Shown piece after piece: positions 232 to 24,216 of a DNA stretch of 27,011 nt (within the stretch, counting starts at the first letter, position 1; the number at the start of each line of letters is the position of its first letter). Origin of the DNA: a virus; the IMG/VR virus record IMGVR_UViG_3300038534_000054, positions 1-27,011 of that record; one strand, given 5' to 3'. The translations under genes and the position numbers were made by a program. The notes under the pieces are model-generated. The model searched no databases, was not told the origin of the DNA, and was given only the letters and a program-made list of their open reading frames with translations.

Positions 232-511
232 TTTGAAAAGAGCTGTTTTTCGGTTTCTTGAGCTTAACCCCAAAGTCGATATTGCTGAAGTCGTAAAACG
301 GCATTGCAATGAATACAAAGATTTGAACCGATTTAGGCGTGACGTATCGAACAGCCCTTTAGCTAAAAAGCTGGAATCGGGAGATTTTTTGCGATCTAAC
401 CATAAAACCGCACAGGCTCGCCCAAACAAGAATAAAAAAGTAGATTCTAAGCGGTGCTATATAACCGAAGATCAGATAAGGTTTATAAAATATGGCCGCT
501 CTAGTATCTAA
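224..511 (+). CDS. 95-aa hypothetical phage protein
   Basis: The frame is open from 152, but the start at ATG 224 is preferred because it overlaps the stop of the preceding 38-aa ORF (ATGAGTGA), the same coupling seen through this operon. The upstream in-frame extension is Leu/Arg-rich and has no ribosome binding site. The protein (begins MSDLKRAVFR) is basic and probably helical, with many Lys and Arg residues near the end (TAQARPNKNKKVDSKR). There is no membrane segment. It overlaps the next gene by 20 nt. A small basic DNA-binding or DNA-packaging helper would fit the place in front of the terminase block, but I do not recognise the family. Confidence 0.6.
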   Translation: MSDLKRAVFRFLELNPKVDIAEVVKRHCNEYKDLNRFRRDVSNSPLAKKLESGDFLRSNHKTAQARPNKNKKVDSKRCYITEDQIRFIKYGRSSI

Positions 512-3500
512 TTTAATACGTCCACTTGATCTTGGCAGCACTGCGCTTACCCGTGCTGTTGTGGCTGGCGCTGATGCAGCTATGATTGATGGCTTCGTTT
601 CTGGCTCAAACGGCATTGATGGCTCATCCGCTGCTAATTATTTTGAAAATGGTGGCACTGCTGTAGTCACAGATGATTGGTATTCAGCTTGGGCGGCTTT
701 CCCTAGTGCAGCAACTTACGATATGAGTGCGGTAGATCGCGCTTTTGTTTGCCATTACAAAGTCGGATCGGCAACGTTTAACAATCTCAAAGCTGTTCGT
801 TTCTGTCTGCGTTCCGGCTCAGGCACAGCCAATTGGGGTATATGGGAGTACACGTTAGACAGTACGGGAAATAACGGTTTTTATCACCCGTTTATGATGG
901 TTGGTACACCCGATTCGACCGTAGGAACATTTGATAATACGGATATTACCGGCTTTGCCTTTATGGCGCAGCCGTCAAATACCGATGTTTTTGCTTTCGC
1001 CCAGTACATAGACCAGTTGGTTTTTATTGATGGGCCGGTTAATTTTGAGGACACAGGCACGGCGGCAACAGTCCAAATGCAAGATTATTTTGATCTTGTT
1101 GAAAGTTCATCCACGCAGGACTATAGAACACAACTTGCTGTAAAAGCGGGGCCAGCGTTTGAGTTTGGATTTCCTGTCAGAATAACGTCTGATGATTATT
1201 TATCCTCCTCAGCGGCAGAAGTAATTGCGTTTAAAGAAGCGGATTCTATAGGTTTTCCTTCGATGGCTTCGGGTTATTACCAATTAATATTTGAGCCACA
1301 AGCGTCTGGCTCTCAGGTTTACTCCAATTTAACAGCCGCAACGAACTCAACGGCTTATGACTTAACGATAGACGGCAGCGCAGCAGGATCAACGCTGGAT
1401 TTTACCTCTTGCCTTTTTGCCGGTCTTGATGATGTTGTTATTAGTGGTGCTAATACTATGATGGCATCATGCTCTATTTCTTCTCCGGCAACCTGTGATA
1501 TTGCTGAGGGCGACCTATCCTTAACAATTAACGATTCTGTGGCGGCGATAAACTGGTCTGCCGATCTTGTGGCGGGGTCTACAATTACCACTAACAGCCC
1601 TATTGATGTCAGTTTTGGTGTTGGCGATTATTCTGATATTAATATCAATATGACCGCAAGTGCTGATTTTGCTGTAAATCCGTCTACTGTTGGAACGTAT
1701 GTTTTCACGGGATTAACAACGACTGGAACGGTTAATTTTGACAATGATTCAGCAAATAACACGACGATTTCAATATCTGGATCGTTAAACAATACGGTAG
1801 CAAGTCCTACTACTGGTGGCGGTACGATAACAATCACTCAGCCTCAAGATACGTTTACAATAACTTCCTCCGAATCATCGTCATTAATTCAGATATTTGC
1901 AACCGGCACACAAACATTACTTGACTCTACAACAGGCACAAGCTTGGCTTATGTGTTTTCTGGCACGGTGGTAGTCGATTATGTTGTCCAGAAGGCAGGT
2001 TTTATTCCTCAAAGGGTAACAGGTGTTACTTTAAGTGACACTACGGTAAATGTTTCATTGATTGCAAGCAGGGAATATGACGCTTCTCATGGGCTTACGT
2101 ACACAACGGACGCAAGCTGGTCGAGTAATCAATTAACTGTCCCCACATACGGCGTAACGGCTCAAGGCGTTTTTTCTTTGATGATCGATAGCTTTATCAG
2201 TGAGACCGCTTTACGAAACACAGCGTTTAATCTGGAAATGGATGGCGCAGGCTCGCTTTATCTTACAAATGGCGCAGAAGGCGCAAGTGACTCGACTCCG
2301 GAAAACATCATTGATGGGGGTGTGGCTTACCTTGATTCATCCGGCACAACCACGGCGGCGTGGTCTTATGTTCAATCAATCGGCACAGCCACTGGATTCC
2401 AAGGCGAATTTCAGCAGGTTGATGGTTCTGGGACAGCAGATGCTAGGGCGACAGGCCCATTCGCACAAAATATCAAAGTCTTTGGTGACGCTACGCATGG
2501 TAATTTTGATTACAGAAACCACTTGGTTCTTAAGTATCAGCCTAATGGTTATCGTCCGGTAAGAGTTGATGTTTTAAGCACTTATGGAATAACAAGTCTC
2601 GCTCCGGCGGTCTACGTTGTTGCTATGGAGCCACAAGCAATAAGCGCGGCAACGGGTGATCCTGCTATTTCAATTACGATCACCAAAGAAACTACGCCGG
2701 TTACATGGAATGGTCAGGACTTTTCTATCACCGTTGAAGATACTGGCGCTAATTCTGGCGAGGCAATTTTAAGAGAGATTAACTATAATTTATCGCTCGA
2801 TGCCACATATCAAGGCTTAGACCCGTTCAATTGGCCTGAAATGGTAAAAGAGCTGGGTTCTAGCTATGAAACCTTACGCGGCGTTGTAGAAGGTGATGGC
2901 ACTCCAGTATTGCATGGCGTAAGAGTTATTAGAACAGGCGGTGACCCGCATCCAGACTTTACACGATTCCAAGCGGACAACGGAAATTATTACACGCCAC
3001 CTGTTACAGCGAACGCTTCAATCACAAGCATCACTTCGGGATCAAGGGTAAGAATTTACAACGAGACCACGCTAACAGAGACTTATAATGACGTTGTGGG
3101 CACGTCTTATTCTGCCAGCTATACAGACGGAACTACGTACAGTAGCGGTGATGTAATCAATATCCGTATAACGCAGTCAGGCGCAAGCGCGGCTAAGTTG
3201 CCTTTTGAGACCACTGTAGTCGCTACAACAAGCGGCTGGTCTGCTATCGCAAGCCAAGAAGATGACACGGTATACGCCGCAAACGGAATCGATGGCTCGA
3301 CAGTTACTAAGTTCACTGCTGATTTCACTGATGATGAAATAGATATAAATTCAGCGACTAATTTCACAATGGCTGAGGCGTACGCCTTTTATGTTTATCA
3401 GTTGACGACATCACAGGGTATAGCCGAGTTTTTCAATGGTGTGACTGCGATCGATGCTGGTAATTATCGCAACAATTCATCCATTGTCAGCATTTATTGG

Positions 3501-3827
3501 GACAACCTGACCACAACAAACGTAAGGCAAACCGATACGGCTCGATTTTTCCGTTCAGATGGCAATTATCCCGTTAAGAATGGAGGGGCAACAACTGGTG
3601 GAGGTGGCGTAGATTTAAACTGGTTGAATCAGGTCTACGTTGTAGAAACCGGCACAAGCGGCTTAACAGCGCAGGAATCAGCCTTATTAAACGACATATC
3701 AAGCGTTAAAACGCAGACGGATAGATTGACCTTTACACAAACAGGCGTAGTTGATGCCAATATCCAATATGTGAATGATGTTGAGGTGTCAGGAACCGGC
3801 CAAGATAACGACCCTTGGGGGCCGTAA
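492..3827 (+). CDS. Large beta-rich virion protein, probable tail or adhesin component (1111 aa)
   Basis: Start is ATG 492, with TAAGG about ten bases upstream. The protein is rich in Thr, Ser, Gly, Asn and Asp, almost without Lys, and lacks membrane segments: the composition of exposed beta-structured phage proteins. Residues 1-230 look like a beta-sandwich. About 250-450 has a regular short-strand pattern suggesting a beta-helix or stacked beta-domains. About 470-530 resembles an Ig-like or PEGA-like sandwich. About 776-840 holds a compact motif with HGVRVIRTGGDPHPDF that I associate with phage structural proteins. The C-terminus (VDANIQYVNDVEVSGTG, ending DPWGP) is a recurrent ending of phage tail and baseplate-associated proteins. 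The place ahead of the terminase rather than beside the tail fibre is unusual. Specific function is inferred; a role in receptor or polysaccharide binding is possible. Confidence 0.65.
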   Translation: MAALVSNLIRPLDLGSTALTRAVVAGADAAMIDGFVSGSNGIDGSSAANYFENGGTAVVTDDWYSAWAAFPSAATYDMSAVDRAFVCHYKVGSATFNNLKAVRFCLRSGSGTANWGIWEYTLDSTGNNGFYHPFMMVGTPDSTVGTFDNTDITGFAFMAQPSNTDVFAFAQYIDQLVFIDGPVNFEDTGTAATVQMQDYFDLVESSSTQDYRTQLAVKAGPAFEFGFPVRITSDDYLSSSAAEVIAFKEADSIGFPSMASGYYQLIFEPQASGSQVYSNLTAATNSTAYDLTIDGSAAGSTLDFTSCLFAGLDDVVISGANTMMASCSISSPATCDIAEGDLSLTINDSVAAINWSADLVAGSTITTNSPIDVSFGVGDYSDININMTASADFAVNPSTVGTYVFTGLTTTGTVNFDNDSANNTTISISGSLNNTVASPTTGGGTITITQPQDTFTITSSESSSLIQIFATGTQTLLDSTTGTSLAYVFSGTVVVDYVVQKAGFIPQRVTGVTLSDTTVNVSLIASREYDASHGLTYTTDASWSSNQLTVPTYGVTAQGVFSLMIDSFISETALRNTAFNLEMDGAGSLYLTNGAEGASDSTPENIIDGGVAYLDSSGTTTAAWSYVQSIGTATGFQGEFQQVDGSGTADARATGPFAQNIKVFGDATHGNFDYRNHLVLKYQPNGYRPVRVDVLSTYGITSLAPAVYVVAMEPQAISAATGDPAISITITKETTPVTWNGQDFSITVEDTGANSGEAILREINYNLSLDATYQGLDPFNWPEMVKELGSSYETLRGVVEGDGTPVLHGVRVIRTGGDPHPDFTRFQADNGNYYTPPVTANASITSITSGSRVRIYNETTLTETYNDVVGTSYSASYTDGTTYSSGDVINIRITQSGASAAKLPFETTVVATTSGWSAIASQEDDTVYAANGIDGSTVTKFTADFTDDEIDINSATNFTMAEAYAFYVYQLTTSQGIAEFFNGVTAIDAGNYRNNSSIVSIYWDNLTTTNVRQTDTARFFRSDGNYPVKNGGATTGGGGVDLNWLNQVYVVETGTSGLTAQESALLNDISSVKTQTDRLTFTQTGVVDANIQYVNDVEVSGTGQDNDPWGP

Positions 3828-4013
3828 ATGAGCGCTTGGCTAAACTCATGGGGGCTATCATGGGGTAATAGCTGGGGCAGTCTAAGCGAGCAAGAAAGAC
3901 CGCCAGCGGGCTATGGCGGGTATAAAGACACCCAAACTACAGAGGATGAAGAGATTGTGCTTTTGGCTAAGGTAGTAATAGATATTATTAACGACAACAT
4001 AGGTGATGTATGA
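3828..4013 (+). CDS. 61-aa Trp-rich small phage protein
   Basis: The gene starts directly after the stop of the 1111-aa gene, with GGGGG about seven bases upstream. The N-terminus repeats a Trp-Gly-Asn-Ser pattern (NSWGLSWGNSWGSLS), followed by a Gly/Tyr stretch and an acidic segment, then a hydrophobic helix (IVLLAKVVIDIIND). I have seen short proteins with WGNSWG repeats next to large phage structural genes ending in DPWGP, but know no function. It could be a small virion component accompanying the preceding protein. The next gene overlaps it by ATGA at 4010-4013, so the two are translationally coupled. Confidence 0.6.
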   Translation: MSAWLNSWGLSWGNSWGSLSEQERPPAGYGGYKDTQTTEDEEIVLLAKVVIDIINDNIGDV

Positions 4014-11573: not shown

Positions 11574-12130
11574 TGGCCTCAAAAATAGACCTTATATCTA
11601 ATGCGTTAATCTTAATTGGTGACGTACCAATTAATGATCTTACTGGTAGTGATCGCCGCAAAGTTATTGCAAATAACCTATACGATAACATTGTTAAGAA
11701 TGAGCTATCAAAGCATCGATGGGGGTTTGCTCGAAGGCTTCAAGCATTATCGTTGTTGACGTCGACCCCTATTGGTAACGAATGGCAATATGCTTATCAA
11801 TTACCATCCGATCTGATTGCATTAATTAAGTTAGACCCACGCATTCGTTATCAGGTATATGGAACGCAAATTTATTGTGACTACAACCAAACATTGTACG
11901 CTGATTATATTTACGATTGCCCCGAATCTGAATGGCCCATCTATTTTTCAAAGATGATTGAATATGCCCTTGCTAGAGATATGGCAACGTCACTAAGAGA
12001 TTCCACTTCTATACGTGTTGAGATGGCGGCTGAGTACGAAAACGCCTCGCGTATGGCAAGGTACAGTGATTCACAACAGCACCCACAAACACCGATTGTA
12101 AGCAGACCCTTTATTGATGTGAGGCCATAA
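11573..12130 (+). CDS. Tail tube protein A (T7 gp11-like)
   Basis: This 185-aa protein should form the ring joining the portal to the nozzle of the short tail. It has the family's N-terminus (IDLISNALILIGDVPINDL, then a basic part RRKVIANNLYDNIVKNEL), a conserved-looking block WGFARRLQALSLL, and EWQYAYQLPSDLIALIKL, which is typical of gp11-like proteins, followed by a helical end (FSKMIEYALARDMATSL). T7 gp11 is of similar length. The gene lies before tail tube B as in T7. Overlaps both neighbours by TAATG. Confidence 0.88.
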   Translation: MASKIDLISNALILIGDVPINDLTGSDRRKVIANNLYDNIVKNELSKHRWGFARRLQALSLLTSTPIGNEWQYAYQLPSDLIALIKLDPRIRYQVYGTQIYCDYNQTLYADYIYDCPESEWPIYFSKMIEYALARDMATSLRDSTSIRVEMAAEYENASRMARYSDSQQHPQTPIVSRPFIDVRP

Positions 12131-14673
12131 TGGCTAAAAGCAGGTCAATACAAAATAATTTCCTTTCAGGGGTGTTATCACCACTGATAAACGGCAATGT
12201 AACCTTGCAACAGTACTATCAAGGCTTGCAGCAGGGCGAGAACGTTGTCATTGTGCCTCAGGGCGGGGTAAAGCGGCGAGGCGGCATGGCGTTTTCGCTT
12301 GAGCCTTACAACACGCTACAAAGGCTTACGACTACGCCCACGATGCCGAACGGTGGCACACCTGCAAATATTAACGATGGTGATACGGCAACCACAACGG
12401 CAACTACTACTCCGATAGGCACAACTGATCCTTATGTGGTCGCTCAGTATGATTTAGGTTCCGCACAAGAGGTCGTGCTAGTTGATGTAAAAGGAGCCAG
12501 TTTATCGGTAGGTTCATCCGATGAGTTCAGGATTCAATATTCAGATGATGGCGCAGCATGGTTTGGAAGTTATCGGAACTTATCACTTGATACAACAAGC
12601 GCAGATAAGCGGATAGAAATCAACACGGTATCAGGCTCCAGTTCGCTACCACATAGATATTGGCGACTGGTCAAAATAGGTGGCACAGATGCAGGCGCGG
12701 CGGTTGTTAATATTGCCGAGTTTAATCTCTTGGTTAATTCAGGAACACTATCTAATGTCGGCAACGTAGGCATGTCGCCTGATGTTGGTGTTGATTACTT
12801 AGCTATTCTTACGGATGGAAATATTCAAATAATCCGCTATGTTGGCAATACCCTTGTTAATGTCGGGAGTGTTGAAGCCCCTTACGCTAGTGCTGATGTA
12901 TCTAAGGTTAGAGGGGCTACGCTAGGTAGCGTTACCCTGTTATTCCACGAGGATTACCCGACACAAAGGCTAATTAACTACGGCGATCCATTTGTTAATA
13001 GTGGCGTAACAACAAATCCTTTTGATGATTATTCATATTGGTATATCGATGATGCGCCGTTTACCAACGTCCCTTTATTCGATTACAACGACAGCTTAAG
13101 TCCTGTTCCTGTCGCTGAACAGCAAGATATAGCTTTTGGTAGCTTCTCTAGGGGGATGCAATACCAGATAAACATTAATAATATTTTAAGCAAGCAAATT
13201 ACTTTTGCCGGTGACGCCACTCCAGATGAGCAAGCGTCCACAGAGGAGAATTTACGTAAGAATCTGCAAGATATGCCAGTGTTTGGTGATACGGGAATAT
13301 CGGTAAACCGTGTAGGGGCGAACCAATATCGAATCACAATTGAGGGTGAGTCTGCGGATGATTACAATTTGTTTAGCGGCTTTAATACTACAGGCACAAC
13401 GTCAGCCAGCATCACCTTTACTAAAGTTGCAACGGGGTCACCTAGGCGCGAGCCTGTATGGTCTGCTAATCGCGGTTATCCGCGCATGGGAACTTTTTTT
13501 GAGGGGCGCTTGTGGATAGGTGGCACACGAGACAAGCCGCAATCTTTATTTGCGTCTAAGTCAGGTTCCAACCTTGATTTTGATACTGGTTCAGGCGCGG
13601 ATGACGAGGCGATATTCACCACTCTATCAGGCAGGCGATTAAACGCCATTACTGATATTTATGCTGGGAGAAACCTTCAGGTTTTTACTACAGGCGGTGA
13701 ATATGCCAGTTTAACATCAGGTGTTACCCCTTCATCCGTTAATTTAAAAAACCAAACGTCTAACGGTTCGCTTGACGTTGCAGTTCAGGAAGCTGACGGG
13801 GCGGTTATCTACGCAGACCAGAATGGTAAGACTCTAAGAGAGTTTATCTATACGTTTAACGAGGATGCTTACAATTCAACCGATATCAGCGTTCTATCCT
13901 CTCATTTAATCAAAGAGCCTGTATCTATGGGCTTTCTCACAGGTACAGCATCAGATGATGCTAACTGGTTGTTTATTATCAATGCCGATGGTGATGCCTC
14001 GGTATTAAACAAGCTTAGGTCGCAAGATATAAACGGCTTTACAAAGATGACCACCACAGGCAATATTTTAAAGGTGACGGTTTTCGGTGATGAAGTTGCA
14101 TTTGTTGTTGATCGAACGATTAATGGCGTTGCAAAACGCTACGTGGAAAGGTTTACATTTTCAAATAGAATGGATTGCTCGGTGTCGTCAGTTTTTACCT
14201 CTTCAACCATAACTGGTCTAGACCACCTAGAAGGTGAAACGGTTGACGTTAGAGTAGATAACACTGTTTTAAGTCAACGCACAGTAACGGGTGGGCAAGT
14301 TGTTTTAACTGCCTCGGAGTCAACAGGACTAAATACAAGTAATGTTGTTGAGGTTGGACTCAACTTCAACGTGGCTGTTCAGTCGATGCCGATGAATACC
14401 AACATTGGAAGCGGTGAAAACTTTTTGCGATTGAAGAAAATCACGCGAATGAACTTGCGTGTCTATGAAACCACGGGCGTTTACGTCGATGGCTACCCAG
14501 TAGCGAACAGATCGTTTGGCGAGCCTTTTGGCAGTCAGGACGTGTTGACAGGTATAATTGATGATTTTTACGTTGCCGAGGGTTGGAATAGGGGCACCGT
14601 TCCCGTTATCACATGCCCAGCCCCGACGCAATTTCACCTGCAAGCTATTGAGTATGAGGTAGAATCGTCGTGA
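12130..14673 (+). CDS. Tail tube protein B / nozzle (T7 gp12-like) with an inserted discoidin-like domain
   Basis: This 847-aa protein should form the distal nozzle of the short tail. Residues 1-60 show the family N-terminus (SIQNNFLSGVLSPLINGNV, then VVIVPQGGVKRRGGM). Between about residues 74 and 201 lies a segment with the pattern of F5/8 type C (discoidin) domains: INDGDTATT, YDLGSAQEVVLVDVKG, FRIQYSDDGAAW, HRYWRLVKIGG, VNIAEFNLLV. The remaining nozzle part resumes after it (VGVDYLAILTDGNIQIIRYV; later VWSANRGYPRMGTFFEGRLW, a typical gp12-like block). Discoidin domains usually bind carbohydrate or lipid, so the tail tip may touch host surface sugars. T7 gp12 is 794 aa. The start has GAGG six bases upstream. 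Confidence 0.88.
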   Translation: MAKSRSIQNNFLSGVLSPLINGNVTLQQYYQGLQQGENVVIVPQGGVKRRGGMAFSLEPYNTLQRLTTTPTMPNGGTPANINDGDTATTTATTTPIGTTDPYVVAQYDLGSAQEVVLVDVKGASLSVGSSDEFRIQYSDDGAAWFGSYRNLSLDTTSADKRIEINTVSGSSSLPHRYWRLVKIGGTDAGAAVVNIAEFNLLVNSGTLSNVGNVGMSPDVGVDYLAILTDGNIQIIRYVGNTLVNVGSVEAPYASADVSKVRGATLGSVTLLFHEDYPTQRLINYGDPFVNSGVTTNPFDDYSYWYIDDAPFTNVPLFDYNDSLSPVPVAEQQDIAFGSFSRGMQYQININNILSKQITFAGDATPDEQASTEENLRKNLQDMPVFGDTGISVNRVGANQYRITIEGESADDYNLFSGFNTTGTTSASITFTKVATGSPRREPVWSANRGYPRMGTFFEGRLWIGGTRDKPQSLFASKSGSNLDFDTGSGADDEAIFTTLSGRRLNAITDIYAGRNLQVFTTGGEYASLTSGVTPSSVNLKNQTSNGSLDVAVQEADGAVIYADQNGKTLREFIYTFNEDAYNSTDISVLSSHLIKEPVSMGFLTGTASDDANWLFIINADGDASVLNKLRSQDINGFTKMTTTGNILKVTVFGDEVAFVVDRTINGVAKRYVERFTFSNRMDCSVSSVFTSSTITGLDHLEGETVDVRVDNTVLSQRTVTGGQVVLTASESTGLNTSNVVEVGLNFNVAVQSMPMNTNIGSGENFLRLKKITRMNLRVYETTGVYVDGYPVANRSFGEPFGSQDVLTGIIDDFYVAEGWNRGTVPVITCPAPTQFHLQAIEYEVESS

Positions 14674-15032
14674 ATGATTTAAGTGTTGTCGAGATGGAAG
14701 AGGAGATGAGACACCTCCCGCAAATAAAGCTGGAAACAATACACCGTTTTTCGGATGGGTGTTATGCCAGAGAGCTAAGAATTCCAGCGGGTGTTATGTT
14801 GTCTGGAGCCTTACACAAAACCAACCACCATTGGGTTCTTTCTAAAGGTAAAATCTTTGTTAAAAATGGAAATGAGAAAATTATCTACGAAGCCCCTTAT
14901 CATGGGCAGACGTATTCAGGGGATAAAAGGATTATATTTGCTTTTGAAGATTCAGTATTTACAACTTTTCATGTAACTGATTCAACAGACATTGAAGAGA
15001 TCGGACGCGAGATTTTAGGAGAAGAGTTATGA
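14670..15032 (+). CDS. Phage cupin-domain protein (120 aa)
   Basis: A GTG start at 14670 is chosen because GAGGT lies nine bases upstream and the codon overlaps the previous stop (GTGA); the in-frame ATG 24 bases later has no ribosome binding site. The product is a single small beta-barrel of cupin type: VMLSGALHKTNHHWVLSKGK (H49, H53, H54), EAPYHGQTYSGDKRIIFAFE, then FTTFHVT (H101), arranged as expected for metal-binding His pairs. Cupins with this signature occur beside tail or internal virion genes of many podophages. Their job is not known to me; it may be structural or enzymatic. It overlaps the next gene by ATGA. Confidence 0.8.
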   Translation: MNDLSVVEMEEEMRHLPQIKLETIHRFSDGCYARELRIPAGVMLSGALHKTNHHWVLSKGKIFVKNGNEKIIYEAPYHGQTYSGDKRIIFAFEDSVFTTFHVTDSTDIEEIGREILGEEL

Positions 15033-15490
15033 GCTGGGTTGTTACGGTTGTAACCGTTGCCGCTGCCGTGTATTCCGCTCAACAAAGCAGAGAGGCGGGT
15101 AAGCAGCAGCAATATAATCTTGAAAGGCAAGCCGAGCAGGAAAGATTGTCTGCCGAAGATCAAGAAATACAGCGTAGAGATAAGTTAAATAAGGTTCTCT
15201 CGGCCAATATCGCCAGTGCAGCGGCTTCGGGCACTTTAGGCGAAGGATCACAACAGTCTATAGCGATAGGTGCGGCGCAGCGGGTGGCTAGCTCGGAGGG
15301 TGCCGAATCCTTATCCGAACGAATGCGGCAAGATTTATTACGTAGAGAAGGCAAAGCGGCAAAAACGGCAGGGGATGTCCAAGCCGCTTCTACTTTATTG
15401 AATGCAGGCGTTAAGGCAGCGAGAACACGCTCCGCCCAAAAAACCCAATCACAGGCAGCGAGAACACGCTCCGCCCAAAAAACCCAATAA
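15029..15490 (+). CDS. Internal virion protein, T7 gp14-like (153 aa)
   Basis: The product starts with a hydrophobic segment (MSWVVTVVTVAAAVYSAQQS), followed by a long Gln/Glu/Arg-rich helix (AGKQQQYNLERQAEQERLSAE) and an Ala/Gly/Ser part (ANIASAAASGTLGEGSQQSI), the usual layout of gp14-like proteins that are ejected into the outer membrane. T7 gp14 is 196 aa, so this one is short. The C-terminus contains a repeated AARTRSAQKTQ unit made by a 39-bp tandem duplication that runs to the stop codon. Strong ribosome binding site (AGGAGAAG) and ATGA overlap with the cupin gene. Confidence 0.75.
   Translation: MSWVVTVVTVAAAVYSAQQSREAGKQQQYNLERQAEQERLSAEDQEIQRRDKLNKVLSANIASAAASGTLGEGSQQSIAIGAAQRVASSEGAESLSERMRQDLLRREGKAAKTAGDVQAASTLLNAGVKAARTRSAQKTQSQAARTRSAQKTQ
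15415..15488 (+). repeat. Tandem duplication: two identical 35-bp copies, period 39 bp
   Basis: The 35 bases at 15415-15449 recur without mismatch at 15454-15488, separated by TCACA-like linker bases. Both copies are in frame and encode AARTRSAQKTQ; the second copy ends just before the TAA stop. The period (13 codons) keeps the frame. The lack of any difference suggests a recent duplication. Confidence 0.9.
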
Positions 15491-15510: not shown

Positions 15511-17511
15511 ATGCTAGAAGAAATCCAACGCTATGGCAGTATCCGGCCCCAAGGGGTAGGCACTTCATCCAGAGAGATTAGGATGCAGGCTTTGGCGAAC
15601 CTTGGGAAAAATATTAGTGATGCTGGCTTTGGGTTGCTTGCAGAGAAGCGGCAAAAGGAAGGGCAGATTGAGGGCGCTAAAGCGGGCCAAGAAGCAGTCG
15701 AAACAGGAGAAATTAAAGAGCAAAAAAGCCTTTTTCCTTCTGTTTATCAAGAATCGTTTAATAACGCCCAACAAGCGGCCTACCTCGCTGGTGTTGATCG
15801 ACAAGCCGTAGAAAGATTGTCTGAGCTTGAAAATGAGTTTTCTCACGATCCAGAGGCTTATCAAAAATCCGCTCAAGGTTTGCTTGAAGGTTATGTGAAG
15901 AATGCGCCAGAGTCTTATAAGTTCGCGCTTAACGAATCGATAGGCAAGTATGTTTCCCGTGGAACCATGCGTATTAATGACAATGTTGTTAAGCGGGGCA
16001 AGGAGGAAGCCAAAAGCGAATTGCTAGGCGCTCTTGATACCTATTCGAGAGAAGCATCAAGGGCGGCAAGAAACGGCGATGTCGATGCTGTTCAGGACTA
16101 TTTGCAGAAGTCTGAATTAAGTGCGGCTGCCTTGGTTGAGTCTGGTGAGTGGACTAAGGAGCAGGCTGATGAACAGGTGCGTGTTGCGCGAAACGAAACA
16201 ACAGCACAGGTTTACTTGCAGATAGTCGATGACTCAAGCATAGAAGAAGCGACTAAAGTTATTGAACAAGCAGAGAAAGACGTTCCTAAAGGCTTTTCGG
16301 GTGATGAGTGGGATAGAGTTATAGCTGGCGCTAAAATGCGCTTAAAGACTAAAATGCTTAATCAAGCTAAGGCCGGAAGCGGAAAGCCTAAAGATATTTA
16401 CAGGGATAGAGAAACCGCGCTAAGAATTGCCTTGGATAGCGGTGACAGTGACCCCGAAAAGCTACAAGAGGAGCTATTTTTCCTCTACAACAAAAAAGTG
16501 TTCACTCCATCGCAAACTGCTGGTATTTATTCAAAAATATGGGAAGGCATTGGTGAGCAAGAGAAAGTCTGGAATCGCTATCACGGGGATTCTTCAATCG
16601 TCGTACAGCCTAAAGCGGTTGACAATGTTTACCGCAAAGATATTGCAGAATTAGAGGCGGGTGATAAGGTCAATTTTGTCCGTAATGTTAATCTCGTTCC
16701 CGAGACCATGAAAAAAGAAATTCTTAATGATTTGCACTCGGGCGACATTCAGACTGCGGCAAGCGCCGCTGATATGATAACTCGATTGGAAGAGATACAA
16801 GGGCTACCGGATACATTTAAATCTACTGATAAGGCTTACGCAGCGCAGCTAGACAGATTGATTCAAATTTATGAGCCTGAGACAGCGGTTAAAATGGCAA
16901 GGGAAATGACCGATCCTAAAGATAAAGCAAGAATCGAGGCCGCTCAAGACTTTATCAAGAAAGAGTATAAAAAAGGTTTTTCTGATCACGCAGAAAAAGC
17001 AATGGGGCCATTCTTCGGTAAGCTAGATCCAATGATTGCGCCAAATATAACAAAGGATTATGAAACCGCGTTCAAGCAAAATTACATTAACGGCATGGAC
17101 GAAGATCAAGCCCATGAAGCTGCTGAAAGGGATTTAAAACGTGTTTATCAGGAATGGATGGGGCGACCTATGAAATATTCCCCTGACAAATACTATCAGG
17201 TAGAAGGCTCTACAGATTGGATTGCGAACGATGTAATCAAGGAGTTAAAAACGAATATAGCCGGATCGCCAGATATATTAGATTTTTACCTCATTCCTAC
17301 AGATCAAACGGCAAGAGAGGCCGAAACAGGGAAGCCAAGTTATATTATTCGCTATAAAACTAATGAGGGATGGGATTCAATCGGGCGATATTACCCTGAT
17401 ATTGAAGGGCAGATAGCTGGGAAAATAGAGGAAAATCGAGCATTTGTTGATAAAATGAGAAAGCGTAAAAGCTTTACTTATGATCCCACGCCGTCAGTGT
17501 TTGGACCTTAA
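15511..17511 (+). CDS. Internal virion protein, T7 gp15-like (666 aa)
   Basis: This large, almost wholly helical and charged protein (Glu, Lys, Ala, Gln) has no membrane span, as expected of the gp15-like tube-forming ejection protein. The start shows the typical opening (QRYGSIRPQGVGTSSREIR, then LANLGKNISDAGFGLLAEKR). Repeated helices follow, for example SELENEFSHDPEAYQKSAQG and YVKNAPESYKFALNESIG, near residues 105-150. T7 gp15 is 747 aa. It lies after the gp14-like gene and before the gp16-like block, the T7 order. AGGA lies five bases before ATG 15511. Assignment rests on order and composition; sequence identity to T7 gp15 is probably very low. Confidence 0.72.
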   Translation: MLEEIQRYGSIRPQGVGTSSREIRMQALANLGKNISDAGFGLLAEKRQKEGQIEGAKAGQEAVETGEIKEQKSLFPSVYQESFNNAQQAAYLAGVDRQAVERLSELENEFSHDPEAYQKSAQGLLEGYVKNAPESYKFALNESIGKYVSRGTMRINDNVVKRGKEEAKSELLGALDTYSREASRAARNGDVDAVQDYLQKSELSAAALVESGEWTKEQADEQVRVARNETTAQVYLQIVDDSSIEEATKVIEQAEKDVPKGFSGDEWDRVIAGAKMRLKTKMLNQAKAGSGKPKDIYRDRETALRIALDSGDSDPEKLQEELFFLYNKKVFTPSQTAGIYSKIWEGIGEQEKVWNRYHGDSSIVVQPKAVDNVYRKDIAELEAGDKVNFVRNVNLVPETMKKEILNDLHSGDIQTAASAADMITRLEEIQGLPDTFKSTDKAYAAQLDRLIQIYEPETAVKMAREMTDPKDKARIEAAQDFIKKEYKKGFSDHAEKAMGPFFGKLDPMIAPNITKDYETAFKQNYINGMDEDQAHEAAERDLKRVYQEWMGRPMKYSPDKYYQVEGSTDWIANDVIKELKTNIAGSPDILDFYLIPTDQTAREAETGKPSYIIRYKTNEGWDSIGRYYPDIEGQIAGKIEENRAFVDKMRKRKSFTYDPTPSVFGP

Positions 17512-17513
17512 TT

Positions 17514-19040
17514 ATGCCTATAGTAAGAGATGAAATAGACTTAAACGTAGATCGGGCGATTAATTATGCCGCTCCTGAAATTAAAGACGATATTAGCTTT
17601 AAGAAAAAACTAACGAGCGCTTTTCGTCTTGAAAATGAAATTATCTCATTTATAGCAGAAGAGGGGGGATTACCTGATGGTTACGCCTCAACTGAATATG
17701 ATGTGTTTTCAAAATTTACGGAAGAGGAAAAGCTGGATAAGCGCTTTATTGATGCGGCTGTTTATGCTGACAATGATTCAGAACTAGAGGCGGTAAGAAA
17801 CCAATATCAGCGGGAGCTTGCGGACAGAGAAAATATCCAAGGATATGATGGTGTCCTTGCAGCAATACTTGCGGGAACTTTAAGCCCTGTTAATTTAATT
17901 CCTGTAGGTGGCGCAGCGACTAGGGCATACAAGTCAGGAAATGTTTTAAAGGGTGGTCTGAGTACTGCGGCGGTTGCAGCAGGTACGGTCACAGCATCTG
18001 AGGCGTTGTTGCATGAATCTCAACTAACCAGAACGGGTGATGAATCCGCACTTAACATTACTGGCGGGGCGTTGCTTGGTGGTGCCCTTGGCGGCTTGGT
18101 CGCTAAGTTAAATAAAAACACCTTAAATAAGGCTGCAAAAGAAATTGAGACTACGTTTGATGGCCCAGAAGTTACGACTAGAGTGGGGCCGGATAGTGTT
18201 GGTGCGGCTCAAGTCTTTGGTGATGTTCGCATTAAGGGTAAGAATGTTGAAAAGGCATTGTCGGCTTTAAAAGGGATTGACCCTACAGCGAGAGTTATGA
18301 CCGCTGATAGTCAAGCGGCTAGAAAGTATGGTGCAATGCTATTTGAAAACCCGTTAGAAGTTGAGGGATTAAAAGGCCGCTCCGTTGAGCAATCCGCAAG
18401 AACAAAGCAGCAAATGTACCTTGGCCGAGCGATTAATGTAGCGCATAATGAATTTAAGAAGTTAAAGGAATCGGGCAGCAAAATAAAATACCGTGAATTT
18501 GATGAAATGGTGTCCAGAGAAATAAGGAACCCTAATTCAACAGGAAACGAATACGCAGCTAGGGCGGCCAATGCTTACTCTAAAGAGGTTTTTGATACTG
18601 TATTAAAAGAAGGTCAAGAGCTTAAATTATGGGGCGATGATATGGACGTTGTGACCGCTAAACGGTACTTGAATCGGCGCTGGAACAAAGAAGCGGTAGC
18701 AGGAAATATAAAAGAGTTTGAGCGGGTAATTGAGGACTGGATTAAACGAACTGACCCCTCTGTGGAGTCGCCGGATGAATTAGCTAGCGATATAGCGTTA
18801 AGGATTATGGGTACGCCTGATGGGATGATCCCTTATGATGCGGTAATTCGTGAGGGCGTTGAGGGTGTTTCTGAGGCACCAAACCTTAATAAATTAAAAG
18901 GCTTGCAAGTCTCTGAAAAAGTTTATGTAAAAGAAACTGGCGAATTTAAAAAAGTAAAGGGTGATGCTTTTGAGGTTCACGGCAGGCTAACGAAGCAGCG
19001 TAAAATGGTTGATGTTCTTCGGGGGTGTTTAAATGCGTGA
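17514..19040 (+). CDS. Internal virion protein, gp16-like N-terminal portion (508 aa)
   Basis: The product begins with a helical acidic part, then hydrophobic Ala/Gly segments (LAAILAGTLSPVNLIPVGG near residue 115, and GGALLGGALGGLVAKL near 180) typical of podophage ejection proteins that insert in the membrane. Further on are TAKRYLNRRWNKEAV and LASDIALRIMGTPDGMIPYD, blocks I associate with the middle of large gp16-like proteins. The lytic transglycosylase domain of T7 gp16 is not visible. The C-terminus (VYVKETGEFKKVKGDAF, then RLTKQRKMVDVLRGCL) looks like a small added domain. It overlaps the next ORF by eight bases in the +1 frame. Together with the 579-aa gene at 19268 it probably corresponds to one longer protein in relatives (inference). 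Confidence 0.72.
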   Translation: MPIVRDEIDLNVDRAINYAAPEIKDDISFKKKLTSAFRLENEIISFIAEEGGLPDGYASTEYDVFSKFTEEEKLDKRFIDAAVYADNDSELEAVRNQYQRELADRENIQGYDGVLAAILAGTLSPVNLIPVGGAATRAYKSGNVLKGGLSTAAVAAGTVTASEALLHESQLTRTGDESALNITGGALLGGALGGLVAKLNKNTLNKAAKEIETTFDGPEVTTRVGPDSVGAAQVFGDVRIKGKNVEKALSALKGIDPTARVMTADSQAARKYGAMLFENPLEVEGLKGRSVEQSARTKQQMYLGRAINVAHNEFKKLKESGSKIKYREFDEMVSREIRNPNSTGNEYAARAANAYSKEVFDTVLKEGQELKLWGDDMDVVTAKRYLNRRWNKEAVAGNIKEFERVIEDWIKRTDPSVESPDELASDIALRIMGTPDGMIPYDAVIREGVEGVSEAPNLNKLKGLQVSEKVYVKETGEFKKVKGDAFEVHGRLTKQRKMVDVLRGCLNA

Positions 19041-19281
19041 GGTTTCATTAGCAAGTATCCAGCCTGAAAAAAAAGAGGATTTATCTAAGGTTATTGAGGC
19101 AGCAGTTAAAGCCGCATTGTCGGGCCAGCCTGTACCCGTGATTAAACCATCTACGGTTGTTAATCCGCCCGAGGTCAATGTAACCGTACAGAAGCCCGCC
19201 GCAAAGCATGTAATTGAGGTCAAGCGCGATGGAGCGGGTAGAATTGAGCGAATGATAGTGAGTGCTTATGAGCCTGAGTAA
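19033..19281 (+). CDS. 82-aa small protein between the two halves of the gp16-like block
   Basis: ATG 19033 lies six bases after GGGGGTG and overlaps the preceding stop (ATGCGTGA). The N-terminal half is helical (KEDLSKVIEAAVKAALSG); the middle is Pro/Val-rich (INPPEVNVTVQKP-like region); the end has the pattern VIEVKRDGAGRIERMIVSAY. A Pro/Val linker followed by a VxRDxxGRIxRxxV strand pair is common in short phage proteins near structural genes. Function unknown. Its last 14 bases overlap the next gene, so all three ORFs are translationally linked. Confidence 0.6.
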   Translation: MREVSLASIQPEKKEDLSKVIEAAVKAALSGQPVPVIKPSTVVNPPEVNVTVQKPAAKHVIEVKRDGAGRIERMIVSAYEPE

Positions 19282-21007
19282 CTGTATAAAAAAGGCAGGT
19301 AAATCTTTATCTAAGGTCGATGCAGATTATTTAAATAATCGGTACAAGATCGCTTTAAATAAAGGTTTAGATGATGTTGCAGCAGGCAATCAAGCGCTTG
19401 ATGACTTAGCTAGGATCATTGATTCAGACATTGATACTGTACTGTCAAAGACTGGCGTGAAGGGTAAAGGAAAGCAAGGACTAAGATCACCTTTTAAGGC
19501 TAGAAATTTTCTTATCCCTGATGAGCTGGTGGAGCCGTTTTTAGAAAACTCGGCTGAGCAATTAGCGCACATTTACCTAAGACACACAGTGCCTGATATT
19601 GAGATTTTAAAAGCCTTCGGGGATGCTAAGACCGCGCCAAAAGATACGCTAGACTTCTCGATCATCAATAAAGAAATCATGGAGGATTTTAGAAAGAAAG
19701 CGGTTGAAGCAAAGACAGAAAAAGAAGCGAATAAAATTATTAAGGAAGGTCAAAAGGTTGTCGAGGCAATGGCAGGCGTGAGAGATCGTATAAGGGGTGT
19801 TTATGACCTACCCGAAGGATCGCCTACATTTGGGCGAAGGTTTAACGCGGCTATGAGAAACCTTAATTATGTGAGGTTAATGGGCGGGGTTGTCGCCTCG
19901 TCAATTCCCGATATTGGCAAACAGGTTATGGCCGAAGGTTTTATGCGAGCATTTGGAGATGGTTTTGGGCCGCTGGTAAAAAACCTAGCTAAAATGAAGC
20001 CTATCCGTGAAGAAATGCGGCACATGGGATTGGCACTAGACACTATTACAAATGGTCGAATTGAGGCTATTGCAGATATTAACTCGTATGCTCTAGGGAA
20101 TACTAAAGTTGAACGCGGCTTGGAGTATGTCGCCAATAAGTTCGGCAATATCTCACTTATCAATCAGTGGAATGATTTAATGAAAACCGCACACGCTTTG
20201 GCTATGCAATCGAGGGTTTATGATGATCTGTCGAAAGGGAAGTTTGACAATAGATTGTCTCGGCTTGGCTTAAGCGAAGACGAAGCCCAAGGCATTTATG
20301 AGATGGCTAAAAAACATGGGCGCGTAGAAAATGGTGCAAGATTGTTTAATACAAAGGATTGGGAGCGTCAGGATTTGGCTTTTGCGTGGGCAGCAGCATT
20401 GAGAAAAGAATCAGATCGAGTGGTTATCATTCCAGGACAGGAAAAGCCTTTATTTATGTCAAGGCATGTAGGTCAAACCCTATTGCAGTTTAGATCGTTT
20501 ATGCTTTCGTCAACGCAGAGAACAATGCTTGCAACGGCGCAAGGGCAAGAAGCTAATCCTTTAGCTGGGGTCTTAATTATGACCACACTAGGGTCAATGG
20601 CTTATGCTTTTAAACAGTGGGATGCAGGCCGAGAAATAAGCGACGATCCTAAAGTGTGGGTTGCAGAGGGAATAGACCGATCTGGTGTTTTAGGGATTTT
20701 AATGGAGGGTAACAATACCTTAGAACGGTTCAGCGGGCACAACTACGGGCTAAGGCCTATGATGGGTATATCACAACCGGCATCGAGGTTTGCCTCAAGA
20801 TCACAATATGAGGCTCTTTTGGGGCCAACATACGGAAGCGCTGCGCCAAACATGTTAAGGCTTTTCACGGCTGGAAGCGACGAGCACGAATGGAAGGAAA
20901 GCGACACAACGGCTTTGCGTAGAATGTTGCCGTTTCAAAATTTAACTATATTCAGACAAGGCGTTGATGCCGCTGAGAAATATGTCCATGAGGAATTTAT
21001 AGAATGA
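19268..21007 (+). CDS. Internal virion protein, gp16-like C-terminal portion (579 aa)
   Basis: I chose ATG 19268 over an in-frame GTG at 19262; both overlap the previous gene, so coupling probably drives initiation (no clear ribosome binding site). The first 65 residues (SLSNCIKKAGKSLSKVDAD, then LDDLARIIDS) form a small helical domain. From about residue 75 the sequence shows a typical ejection-protein part: FKARNFLIPDELVEPFLENS, VRLMGGVVASSIPDIGKQVM (a possible membrane segment), HVGQTLLQFRSFMLSSTQR, GVLIMTTLGSMAYAFKQW (second hydrophobic segment), VAEGIDRSGVLGILME and GLRPMMGISQPASRFASR. These blocks recur in gp16-like or equivalent DNA-ejection proteins of podophages. The stop overlaps the tail fibre start (ATGA). 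Confidence 0.78.
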   Translation: MSLSNCIKKAGKSLSKVDADYLNNRYKIALNKGLDDVAAGNQALDDLARIIDSDIDTVLSKTGVKGKGKQGLRSPFKARNFLIPDELVEPFLENSAEQLAHIYLRHTVPDIEILKAFGDAKTAPKDTLDFSIINKEIMEDFRKKAVEAKTEKEANKIIKEGQKVVEAMAGVRDRIRGVYDLPEGSPTFGRRFNAAMRNLNYVRLMGGVVASSIPDIGKQVMAEGFMRAFGDGFGPLVKNLAKMKPIREEMRHMGLALDTITNGRIEAIADINSYALGNTKVERGLEYVANKFGNISLINQWNDLMKTAHALAMQSRVYDDLSKGKFDNRLSRLGLSEDEAQGIYEMAKKHGRVENGARLFNTKDWERQDLAFAWAAALRKESDRVVIIPGQEKPLFMSRHVGQTLLQFRSFMLSSTQRTMLATAQGQEANPLAGVLIMTTLGSMAYAFKQWDAGREISDDPKVWVAEGIDRSGVLGILMEGNNTLERFSGHNYGLRPMMGISQPASRFASRSQYEALLGPTYGSAAPNMLRLFTAGSDEHEWKESDTTALRRMLPFQNLTIFRQGVDAAEKYVHEEFIE

Positions 21008-23280
21008 CCATTTTAGACAACGGCACAAGAAATCAATACACCGCAACAGGAGGGCAAACTGTATTTATTTATGACTTTGAGATATTCGAGTCAGGCGATA
21101 TTGTTGTTTATCGCAATACCACCTTATTGAGCTTTGGCACGGATTACACCTTAACTGGTGTAGGTGATGACAATGGCGGCACGGTTGTTTTAACGGCTGG
21201 TGCTACTGCGGGTCACGTTTACACGATATTTCGTCAAACAACACCAGAGAGAATTACTGACTACCAACAAAGTGGTAATTTCCTAGCAGAAGAAATCAAC
21301 AACGATTTAGACCGTATTTGGGCTGTTATTCAAGAGCTAGAAACAGATCAATCGCGGTTTTTACAAACATCCGAAATAACACAAGTTCCACTTCCAGTAA
21401 CGCTTGAGGATTCTATTACAGGTAATTATTTACGCTGGAAGGACGCTAACACTGTAGAGTCTGTGAGCCTTGGCACTTTTTCCAGTGCGAATGCTGCGGC
21501 ATCGACCTATGATGATTCTGACTCTACTGTCACAGCGGGAAGTGTTCAAGATGCGCTAGATGAAACGGATAGCCGTTTAGGTTTTCATAGGGTTGCTGAT
21601 TACGCTGAATTGATAGCGCTAGACACTACAAATATGGTTGATGGACAGGTAGTCCATATCACTGATTCAGGCATTGCAGGCTCGGGCAATATCCGTAAAG
21701 TAGTGGGACATGGGTTTACGTCTACAAGTGGCGTTATTGTTAGGATAGATGACGATACATATTGGGAAAGGGAGTATGGCGAAAAAATCAATATCCGATG
21801 GTATTCTCCAGCGGGTGACGGCACAACAAACGATGCCTCGATAATAGATTTATTAAACGTCACGGGTAATAGTATTGATTTAGCTGGTTTGAGCTATGCT
21901 TATACAGGATCATTTTCACGTGTCGCTAAATTCTATAATGGAAATATTATCAGTAGCGTAAACGGGACTTATGAATACACTGACAACATTATTACGACAG
22001 ATAAAACTATTACAGTCGGCGCAGCGGGGACTTTTTTAAGATTAGATGCTGCGCTTGATTACTTAAAGTCGCAGGTAATACTTGCTCAGGTTCAATTATC
22101 TATTTTAGATAAGTACTCAACAAAATCAGCATCCGACCCTATGGCACTAGATCAATATCTATTCGATCACCCGCAGTCTTACAATGTTGAGCTGGTTGGC
22201 CCCGCAATGGCGGGAGCAGTCCCCAGTAATTCAGATATGACGGGTACCGAATCAACGGACGAAACATTTTGTTTAGGTCGGTACAATGCCGCGATTTATT
22301 TGCATGGCACAGGTTCAAGCGGAAGTTACGGCCTAGCTTGCCCTAATGGGTTAGCTAGAATAAAGGATTTAATGGTATTTAGTGCCACTCGATATAGTAT
22401 AGATTTAGGCTTTAATGGAAGCCATTTTGCTTCTGATAAAACTAGAGGTTGTATATTTGAAAACTATACCGGTTTTGGGGGTGTTTGGGGAATCATAGGG
22501 AAAGACGCACATTTAGCGTTTAATACAGATTCGTTTTTTGCCTATCAATTTGAGGGTGGCCCCATAGATTCATTAGGCTGTGTAATTAGAGCAGACGCTG
22601 CGACCATGAATCTCTATACTATTTCAGGAGTTCAGCCTTCGACTGGCCCCAAGTATGGTATTTTTGCGGATGAGCGCTCAATGGTGTATTTACCATTTAA
22701 TAACGTAGAGCTATTGCAGATACAAGGATCGTTTTTGCATGGCATCTTTGCGGATAACGGCAGTTTTGTTAGCGGGGTTGACGTAGAATTTACGGGTGTT
22801 ACTCAACCGCTGACAGCTTCTAAAGCCGGAGCTTATATTAAAATCACAAATCCAGTAATTTCTGATGCCGACCCTACTAACACCGCATCTGTGAGCGGCG
22901 CGAGCCAAGGCGGGTATGGTAATAATATCTATCAAGGGTCATTAATTTGTGCAGGTTTAGATGCAACAGTGGACATACATAATGGCACTATGGACAATTG
23001 TATAGCAACTAGGGGTTTGACCGCTGCTGGCGGTAGAATCTTTGTTGCTACGGGTGATATTGCTGTAGATGATTGCCGGTTTACCGTGGCGTTTGCTAAC
23101 TTTGACGCGGCGGGTACCAGCCAGATAAACGCTACCTTAACAAACCCTAAATCTGGATCATTAGATCAATGTTTAGCCACTAATCAATCATCTGTTCGTG
23201 TTGGAACTAGTAGCGGCTTATCGTTTGGCCCAGCTTTGAACACCACCACAAATGGTAATCTGTTTAGTTCGAGTGCTTAA
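21004..23280 (+). CDS. Tail fibre / tailspike protein (758 aa)
   Basis: This should be the receptor-binding fibre. Residues 1-120 form a virion-attachment domain common in podophage fibres: NQYTATGGQTVFIYDFEIFE, YRNTTLLSFGTDYTLTGVG, GGTVVLTAGATAGHVYTIFR, ERITDYQQSGNFLAEEIN, then a trimerising helix DLDRIWAVIQELE. A linker with YDDSDSTVTAGSVQDALDE (about 168-190) follows. From about 270 on, short strands with turn residues (NGNIISSVNGTYEYTDNI; later SFVSGVDVEFTG, and ATVDIHNGTMDNC) suggest a right-handed beta-helix, which in spikes may bind or cleave polysaccharide. No catalytic site is identifiable by eye. GAGGAA lies nine bases before the start, and the stop is two bases before the endolysin start. 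Confidence 0.85.
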   Translation: MTILDNGTRNQYTATGGQTVFIYDFEIFESGDIVVYRNTTLLSFGTDYTLTGVGDDNGGTVVLTAGATAGHVYTIFRQTTPERITDYQQSGNFLAEEINNDLDRIWAVIQELETDQSRFLQTSEITQVPLPVTLEDSITGNYLRWKDANTVESVSLGTFSSANAAASTYDDSDSTVTAGSVQDALDETDSRLGFHRVADYAELIALDTTNMVDGQVVHITDSGIAGSGNIRKVVGHGFTSTSGVIVRIDDDTYWEREYGEKINIRWYSPAGDGTTNDASIIDLLNVTGNSIDLAGLSYAYTGSFSRVAKFYNGNIISSVNGTYEYTDNIITTDKTITVGAAGTFLRLDAALDYLKSQVILAQVQLSILDKYSTKSASDPMALDQYLFDHPQSYNVELVGPAMAGAVPSNSDMTGTESTDETFCLGRYNAAIYLHGTGSSGSYGLACPNGLARIKDLMVFSATRYSIDLGFNGSHFASDKTRGCIFENYTGFGGVWGIIGKDAHLAFNTDSFFAYQFEGGPIDSLGCVIRADAATMNLYTISGVQPSTGPKYGIFADERSMVYLPFNNVELLQIQGSFLHGIFADNGSFVSGVDVEFTGVTQPLTASKAGAYIKITNPVISDADPTNTASVSGASQGGYGNNIYQGSLICAGLDATVDIHNGTMDNCIATRGLTAAGGRIFVATGDIAVDDCRFTVAFANFDAAGTSQINATLTNPKSGSLDQCLATNQSSVRVGTSSGLSFGPALNTTTNGNLFSSSA

Positions 23281-23282
23281 AA

Positions 23283-23741
23283 ATGAAATACTTCACTCCA
23301 CAAGAATTTATTCGAAAAGGTTCAGTAGGTGATATTGACTGGTTCCCCCGAATGTCACAGGAGCTGTTGATTAAGTTAGACTTGCTTAGGTTTAATTGGG
23401 GTAAACCAATACATATCAGTCCTCACAATGGTGCTATAGGCCGTTTTGGTAATGGAACAGGTTATCATTATGGTGAAACACACGGCGAAGTAAAAGCCAT
23501 TGACATCATGCCCGAAGGTATAGAAACCTACGACGATGCACAGGCATTCATTAAGTTGGCTACCAGCCTAGGATTTACCGGAATAGGCTTTTATCCGAAT
23601 TGGAAGCCAGAGTGCGGCTTTCATGTAGACGTAAGACCGGATCGAGACTACGGAAGTCCGGCAATGTGGGGGGCTGTAAACGATGGAGAAGGTCAGTATA
23701 CTGTCACCTTAACCGAAGCAATGAATAGGCTATTAGCATGA
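23283..23741 (+). CDS. Endolysin, M15-type zinc peptidase (152 aa)
   Basis: The enzyme should cut the peptide part of peptidoglycan at lysis. It has the metal signature of the M15 family: H67 and D74 in THGEVKAIDI (spacing HxxxxxxD), and H114 in GFHVDVRP; E110 just before the last motif could be the general base. The length suits a single catalytic domain, and there is no signal peptide, so a holin is needed for release. It starts two bases after the tail fibre stop without a clear ribosome binding site, and overlaps the next gene by ATGA. The neighbouring holin candidate and spanins support the lysis role. Confidence 0.87.
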   Translation: MKYFTPQEFIRKGSVGDIDWFPRMSQELLIKLDLLRFNWGKPIHISPHNGAIGRFGNGTGYHYGETHGEVKAIDIMPEGIETYDDAQAFIKLATSLGFTGIGFYPNWKPECGFHVDVRPDRDYGSPAMWGAVNDGEGQYTVTLTEAMNRLLA

Positions 23742-23962
23742 GATTACCTACAGCAGATGATTTGAGATCAGACACCGTTAAAACTGGCGCATTAGCAACA
23801 CTATTTGGCGCTATTGGCGCATTAGCACAAGGGCTTGGCGCGGGCGGCTTAATACCACAATCCACCGTAAACACAATCTTGGCGGTATCACCTTATGCTT
23901 TAATCGTGGTTGGCTACCTTTCGTCATATTTTCGTATTAACCAAAAGACCATTTTAAAATGA
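23738..23962 (+). CDS. Putative holin (74 aa, two membrane segments)
   Basis: Two hydrophobic helices are visible: residues about 17-38 (TGALATLFGAIGALAQGLGAG) and 43-64 (VNTILAVSPYALIVVGYLSS), with short polar ends and a basic C-terminus. Size, two spans and position between endolysin and spanin genes fit a class II-type holin. No sequence family is recognised, so a different small membrane role remains possible. It overlaps both neighbours by ATGA. Confidence 0.7.
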   Translation: MRLPTADDLRSDTVKTGALATLFGAIGALAQGLGAGGLIPQSTVNTILAVSPYALIVVGYLSSYFRINQKTILK

Positions 23963-24216
23963 GCTGGCTTAAATTATTCTTAGGTGGGTCGTGGGCCTAC
24001 CTTGTTGCTGCTGGTGGTGCTATTCTCGCGGCATTTGGCTATATTCAAAAAGTCAAATATGATACTCGCAAGGCTGAACGTATAAAAGCGGAACAGGTCA
24101 AAAGCGAGTATGAGAAAGAGCAGCTTAAAAAACGAGTTGAGCATGATGAGCAAATTGATACTCTTGATGACATTGATCTTGATCGCCGGTTGCGCGAGCA
24201 GTCTCGTCGTCATTGA
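23959..24216 (+). CDS. i-spanin (Rz-like inner membrane spanin subunit, 85 aa)
   Basis: An N-terminal membrane anchor (about residues 9-28, GGSWAYLVAAGGAILAAFGY) is followed by a long charged, periplasmic helix (KVKYDTRKAERIKAEQVKSE and onward), the classical Rz architecture. The last residues (DIDLDRRLREQSRRH) are basic. A lipoprotein gene starts inside it in the +1 frame and runs past its end, the usual Rz/Rz1 arrangement. The pair fuses inner and outer membranes at the end of lysis. Short for an i-spanin but within range. Confidence 0.82.
   Translation: MSWLKLFLGGSWAYLVAAGGAILAAFGYIQKVKYDTRKAERIKAEQVKSEYEKEQLKKRVEHDEQIDTLDDIDLDRRLREQSRRH

Follow-up and report, generated by a model that had tools for sequence, protein, structure and literature searches.

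A split gp16-type ejection protein with a lone cysteine at each broken end in a podophage record

Internal virion protein D of phage T7, gp16, is a single cysteine-free chain of 1318 amino acids (aa) with an N-terminal lytic domain, whose gene follows the gp14-like and gp15-like ones and precedes the tail fibre; it is described as refolding on ejection and as having two membrane regions, with its N-part in the periplasm and a part that binds DNA in the cytoplasm (PMC8954989). Distant cultured phages also encode a gp16-type protein as two genes. In the Epsilon15-like phages (gp16 and gp17; PHROG_684; e.g., phiV10 and Alcaligenes phage Piluca) the halves are separate neighbouring genes, and in the Autographiviridae pelagiphages HTVC134P and Bylgja EXVC010P the protein lies in two genes of 619 and 825 aa, the first carrying a lysozyme-like (pesticin) domain by annotation. 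Here, we analyze IMG/VR record IMGVR_UViG_3300038534_000054, positions 1 to 27,011 (the whole 27,011-nucleotide stretch, hereafter the window), a virus record bearing a podophage head and ejection module. Its gp16-type protein is divided between two open reading frames (ORFs), ORF1 and ORF3, with a small ORF2 in between; unlike T7 gp16, it comprises two chains with one cysteine apiece and no lytic domain. ORF1 and ORF3 are probably stapled together in the virion by a disulfide between these terminal cysteines, as the number and placement of cysteines in related proteins suggest.

ORF1 (17514..19040, + strand, 508 aa), ORF2 (19033..19281, + strand, 82 aa, in the +1 frame) and ORF3 (19268..21007, + strand, 579 aa) overlap and are each well formed, in agreement with an earlier sequence-only reading of this DNA. 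ORF2 starts within the final 8 nucleotides (nt) of ORF1 (ATGCGTGA). The program-made start of ORF3 is GTG 19262 (581 aa); we prefer ATG 19268, which gives 579 aa beginning MSLSNCIKKAGK, because the counterpart in contig L018, a relative with the same layout, aligns from that Met. ORF1 residues 58-426 align to positions 253-659 of the PHROG_342 profile (E 7.5e-29) and ORF3 residues 66-564 to positions 717-1215 of 1235 (E 5.1e-43), i.e., in profile order to a family annotated as internal virion protein with endolysin domain. These matches are far beyond chance, and ORF1 and ORF3 are two halves of one family. ORF3 additionally matches PHROG_16310 (E 5.9e-106) and PHROG_684 (E 1.5e-7). The sequence-only reading had recognized blocks of one ejection protein in two ORFs, and they lie where it placed them, GTPDGMIPYD ending at ORF1 residue 442 and FKARNFLIPDELVEPF starting near ORF3 residues 75-80. 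The gene order gp14-like, gp15-like, gp16-like, tail fibre is that of T7 gp16-type loci, the gp15-like gene being called by position only. The window departs from the one continuous chain of the PHROG_342 family, its match being divided over two ORFs that differ in frame and are separated by stops.

T7 gp16 is homologous to this family over both halves, with an hhalign probability of 95 for the C-half and a weak hmmsearch match for the N-half. When the predicted single-chain model was compared with 912 aligned chains, the best was gp16 of the T7 core (9jyy_I, Z 7.8, 284 residues aligned), followed by 9vvp_W (Z 6.1); Foldseek of the model against the PDB returned nothing below E 0.001, and no gp16 emerged when the family profiles were searched against PDB sequences. 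The T7-type lytic domain is indeed missing, as first noted from the sequence: Pfam and PHROGs searches gave no lytic domain for the gp15-like gene and no N-terminal peptidoglycan-cleaving domain for ORF1, whose PHROG_342 match begins only at position 253 of the profile. Such a domain is described as variable in the gp16-type family, with P22 given as a member without one (PMC8954989). In L123, an unsplit relative, the PHROG_342 match begins at position 220; because this protein also has no lytic domain, its absence is unrelated to the split.

The break lies between the blocks ..TPDG..PYD and L(R/K)GP.K.R, where aligned single chains have a short linker. A predicted single chain (mean pLDDT 67) contains the break site in residues 505-533, where pLDDT drops below 50 between well predicted helices; alignment with single-chain homologs, the check proposed at the outset, puts the break in this linker. 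The two halves are joined in one ORF at 89 of 95 loci, 5 are cut by a contig end before the N-half, and 1 (L018) is split; some loci share a contig, and the scan retained the best 80 of 510 relatives, so that less common splits could have escaped it. Homologs in which these regions are never joined are therefore not what was found, and the possibility that relatives carry the halves as independent genes holds for distant phages but not for the nearest relatives, which join them. In a tree of 32 C-halves (L123 not included), the window and L018 pair adjoins the single chains L083 and L094 with support of 100/99. Since the pair nests among single chains, the single chain looks ancestral.

By extrapolation from the T7 alignment, the break would map near T7 gp16 residues 750-780, close to the mutants G737D, I754T and E761K named in PMC8954989; we place no reliance on this position. 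A possible repeat of a short Lys-Gly-Leu stretch, noticed by eye at the two edges of the inserted cassette (C-tail, ORF2 and N-head, described below), was too weak to use. Seven single chains (L022, L024, L035, L040, L041, L043 and L059) contain extra blocks of ~150-400 residues near N-half profile position 230, close to the pelagiphage break site.

Each of the two window chains contains a single cysteine, and each lies at the broken end. In ORF1 it is Cys505 (TGT, 19026..19028, + strand), fourth residue from the end of 508, and in ORF3 it is Cys6 of 579 (TGT, 19283..19285, + strand); ORF2 has no cysteine. The same arrangement recurs in 14 two-gene phages, two of which (MD-2021a and Bylgja) are near-duplicates of others in the set. 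The N-piece has exactly one cysteine, within its last 10 residues, in 14/14. The C-piece has exactly one in 13/14 as annotated and in 14/14 after start correction, since APEC has one cysteine, at residue 7, with a longer start; the cysteine falls within residues 2-10 in 12/14, and in FluPA14 the sole cysteine is at residue 12. The C-gene was recognizable by homology in all 14 phages and the N-gene, as a relative of the ORF1 family, in 9 (E below 0.01); the N-genes of phiV10, YeP5, APEC, Piluca and MD-2021a gave no match at that threshold. By comparison, 60 other structural genes from the same loci all lack cysteine in their last 10 residues, and in 2 of them a cysteine falls within residues 2-10. 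Unbroken proteins are nearly free of the residue: it is absent from 73 of 76 distinct complete single chains, the remaining 3 carry theirs in an extended start region overlapping the gene upstream, and neither T7 gp16 nor T7 gp15 (747 aa) contains any.

A prophage set assembled after the rule had been formed (a PHROG_684 search of 398 genomes, yielding 8 genes with flanks) behaves in the same way. Each of the 8 C-genes, which encode 822-898 aa, has a single cysteine, at positions 6-20 of the longest ORF; an N-gene was identifiable in 5 of the 8, in every case with a single cysteine 3-11 residues before the end, and none was identified in the flanks of the other 3. In L133 the N-piece cysteine is six from the end, and the C-piece has one, at residue 6, after start correction and two without it. 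The N-genes of L141, L148 and L187 have one cysteine each, fourth from the end, and the C-gene of Vibrio phage ZCVPP1, for which no N-gene was identified, has one. A middle piece with two broken ends, found in L137, has exactly two cysteines, at residues 6 and 114 of 119. In L105 an LPD38 protein is a separate piece of 1089 residues with one cysteine, at residue 7, downstream of an ORF ending LLRCIYG; unsplit LPD38 chains, four complete (1679-2706 aa) and two partial, have none. Collectively, cysteines and broken ends agree in number: 0, 1 or 2. Our searches of the open-access literature turned up no description of split ejection proteins linked by a disulfide or by cysteines.

The Epsilon15-like proteins have one cysteine at each broken end, like the window, yet their core sequences are distant, whereas the window halves belong to a single-chain lineage and have ORF2 between them. 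HTVC134P and Bylgja also have one at each broken end, the N-piece ending YKCK and the C-piece beginning MAECK, but their break is elsewhere, at about profile position 224-251 of the N-half, and their ends are unlike the others. In Pelagibacter phage HTVC309P (L100, 4059-6536), in-frame TAA and TAG stops interrupt the second ejection gene, which the annotation lists as a pair of genes; its counterpart in HTVC134P and Bylgja is one 825-aa gene, and the stops may reflect decay, sequence error or recoding.

The broken ends of the window proteins are added modules that recur elsewhere. ORF1 closes with a C-tail of 48 aa ending LRGCLNA (18894..19037, + strand), ORF2 bears a C-terminal RDGAGRI motif, and ORF3 opens with an N-head of 66 aa beginning MSLSNCIKKAGK (19268..19465, + strand), for which a low-confidence model predicts helices 3-13, 16-32 and 37-61; all three have counterparts in L018, L137 and L105. 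L018 contains the same three ORFs, of 516, 83 and 585 aa, with identities of 56, 33 and 65% to those of the window, and keeps the 8-nt overlap ATGCGTGA plus a similar second overlap. Between the window and L018, pN/pS is 0.28/0.78 for the ORF1 C-extension, 0.29/0.80 for the added N-end of ORF3 and 0.51/0.66 for ORF2; the added ends are under purifying selection. L137, which has a PHROG_684-type C-gene, encodes a 403-aa N-piece with the same C-tail and then, after an 8-nt overlap, a 96-aa ORF2-like gene; further downstream follow the 119-aa middle piece with the N-head and a 771-aa C-piece. In L105, a cut ORF ending in the C-tail is followed by an ORF2-like gene (8-nt overlap, RDSRG motif), three further genes and the LPD38 protein (PF18857), which starts with an N-head resembling that of ORF3. 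The main bodies of the two proteins have no detectable similarity (hhalign probability 0.4), ORF3 has no Pfam match, and an LPD38 search of 295 genomes of one family gave 1 match, which was not used. Also in L105, between the ORF2-like gene and the LPD38 piece, an 823-aa ORF (1368-3839) contains many near-identical repeats (SPTGIASAESFGTA).

Split and single forms also occur in nearly the same phage. Over the 5.5 kilobases (kb) that end midway through the gp15-like gene, L018 and L123 share 97.4% DNA identity, and in the tail fibre they return to 94%, yet the locus in question encodes one 975-aa chain in L123 and three ORFs in L018; the L123 C-half is 65-66% identical to the C-halves of the window and L018. 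This near-identity around a differing locus shows that the split and single forms are exchanged, and their interchange in the same virion background argues that both do the job. The exchanged block, L018 5543-10275, runs from mid gp15-like to the gp16-like end, suggesting that the two ejection proteins travel together. Searches for further members returned little: viral contigs scanned with ORF1 or with ORF2 gave no relative, pair alignments of ORF1 and ORF3 gave only L018, and ORF2, the C-tail or the N-head alone gave nothing useful in phage records, Pfam or NCBIfam. In PHROGs the matches of the added pieces were weak, and a profile of the N-head had no match in 398 genomes.

Could the three ORFs be an ordinary gp16 gene in decay or an assembly error? 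The exact layout occurs in only two contigs, but L018 is independent and diverged with the same layout, the added ends are as constrained as the cores, and parts of the cassette are found in L137 and L105; the conserved layout refutes this explanation, to which we give almost no credence. Joined homologs, the break in a linker and the swap with L123 support, together with the L018 layout and its purifying selection, the original view of a functional split with added ends. Equally negligible, and rejected, is programmed frameshifting that would join the ORFs into one long product. The frames do run +1 and then +1 in both the window and L018; however, a stop at 19030-19032 directly precedes the ORF2 start and the ORF1 stop follows at 19038, leaving hardly any room for a shift, ORF2 and ORF3 have their own starts, with a Shine-Dalgarno-like sequence ahead of ORF2, and RNA folding at the first junction is no greater than in shuffles (z 0.28). 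Since the cassette of C-tail, ORF2 and N-head sits in the ancestral linker, ORF1 and ORF3 would be made as separate chains.

Two alternatives accept separate chains and differ in what the cysteines do. Docking of the pieces could be purely non-covalent, the terminal cysteines serving metal, packing or another virion protein; the conserved modules on both ends could dock unaided, the intervening ORF2 is cysteine-free and the disulfide is only inferred. We consider this unlikely, as the cysteine count equals the count of broken ends and HTVC134P and Bylgja obey the rule with unrelated end sequences. It is still less probable that the cysteines bond like pieces, N with N and C with C, in the core ring. 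The tetramer that T7 gp16 is described as forming in the core would bring like pieces close (PMC8954989), but single chains form the same kind of ring without cysteine, which appears only with the break.

The reading we favour is a disulfide between ORF1 and ORF3: that each chain's only cysteine lies at its broken end suggests that the pieces are clipped together. The C-tail of ORF1 would dock with the N-head of ORF3, the lone cysteines would bond once the virion leaves the reducing cytoplasm, and both chains would exit the capsid as one covalent thread. Proteins crossing the oxidising periplasm would gain from a sequence free of cysteine except for a matched pair. By homology with T7 gp16, ORF1 would carry the first hydrophobic/membrane region and ORF3 the second; the new host's cytoplasm could reduce the bond, so that the C-piece comes free of an N-piece bound to the membrane. 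For ORF2, the most likely role is that of a small assembly helper or minor core protein; T7 gp6.7, a small core protein (PMC11784390), is a possible parallel, not a relative.

Several points weigh against this reading. The disulfide, the complex and the virion products are predictions from sequence, confidence in the structural models is low to middling (pLDDT 58 and 67) and ORF2 is not accounted for. Some start codons are uncertain, with the C-piece count depending on one re-assigned start, and the Fisher values for the terminal cysteines (2e-15 and 4e-10) overstate independence, given the relatedness of the 14 phages. In this gp16 lineage, the three-ORF layout with ORF2 is known from two contigs; in L105, three genes stand between the ORF2-like gene and the one with the N-head, and the contig end truncates the ORF that bears the C-tail.

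Around the split gene, the window encodes a gp14-like internal virion protein (15029..15490, + strand, 153 aa, no cysteine; PHROG_418, E 2.2e-8) and the gp15-like gene (15511..17511, + strand, 666 aa, no cysteine) upstream and, downstream, a tail fibre gene (21004..23280, + strand) that matches PHROG_1640 in its N-terminal part (E 1.8e-29). An endolysin-like gene follows at 23283-23738 (PHROG_894, E 1.5e-6), for which a role in lysis is more likely than wall crossing at entry; with an Rz-like spanin (PHROG_1026, E 7.4e-7), it makes up a likely lysis set at 23283-24213. Elsewhere, a Ser/Thr/Gly-rich ORF of 1111 aa (492-3827), with no Pfam or PHROGs match, adjoins the packaging genes, and a nozzle-like tail protein (12130-14673, PHROG_376) has an inserted F5/8-type-C-like domain around residues 73-168, with an E of 5.6e-6 that falls short of the Pfam cut-off.

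Split ejection genes were already known in distant phages; what is new is the cysteine rule for the split ends. Breaks at different places with unlike ends suggest more than one origin, and we lean towards the view that several podophage lineages broke a cysteine-free ejection protein and gained one cysteine per broken end, with a disulfide restoring the single thread; reduction in the cytoplasm would then cut the thread at a set place, separating the membrane anchor from the DNA-handling part. The rule bears on how gp16-type proteins unfold, pass through the narrow exit channel of the capsid and regain a fold that crosses the cell envelope. If true, it would predict residues that touch in the virion, point to a redox switch and mark natural cut sites in a large flexible machine, and split ejection proteins, often annotated as hypothetical, could be paired by their cysteines alone.

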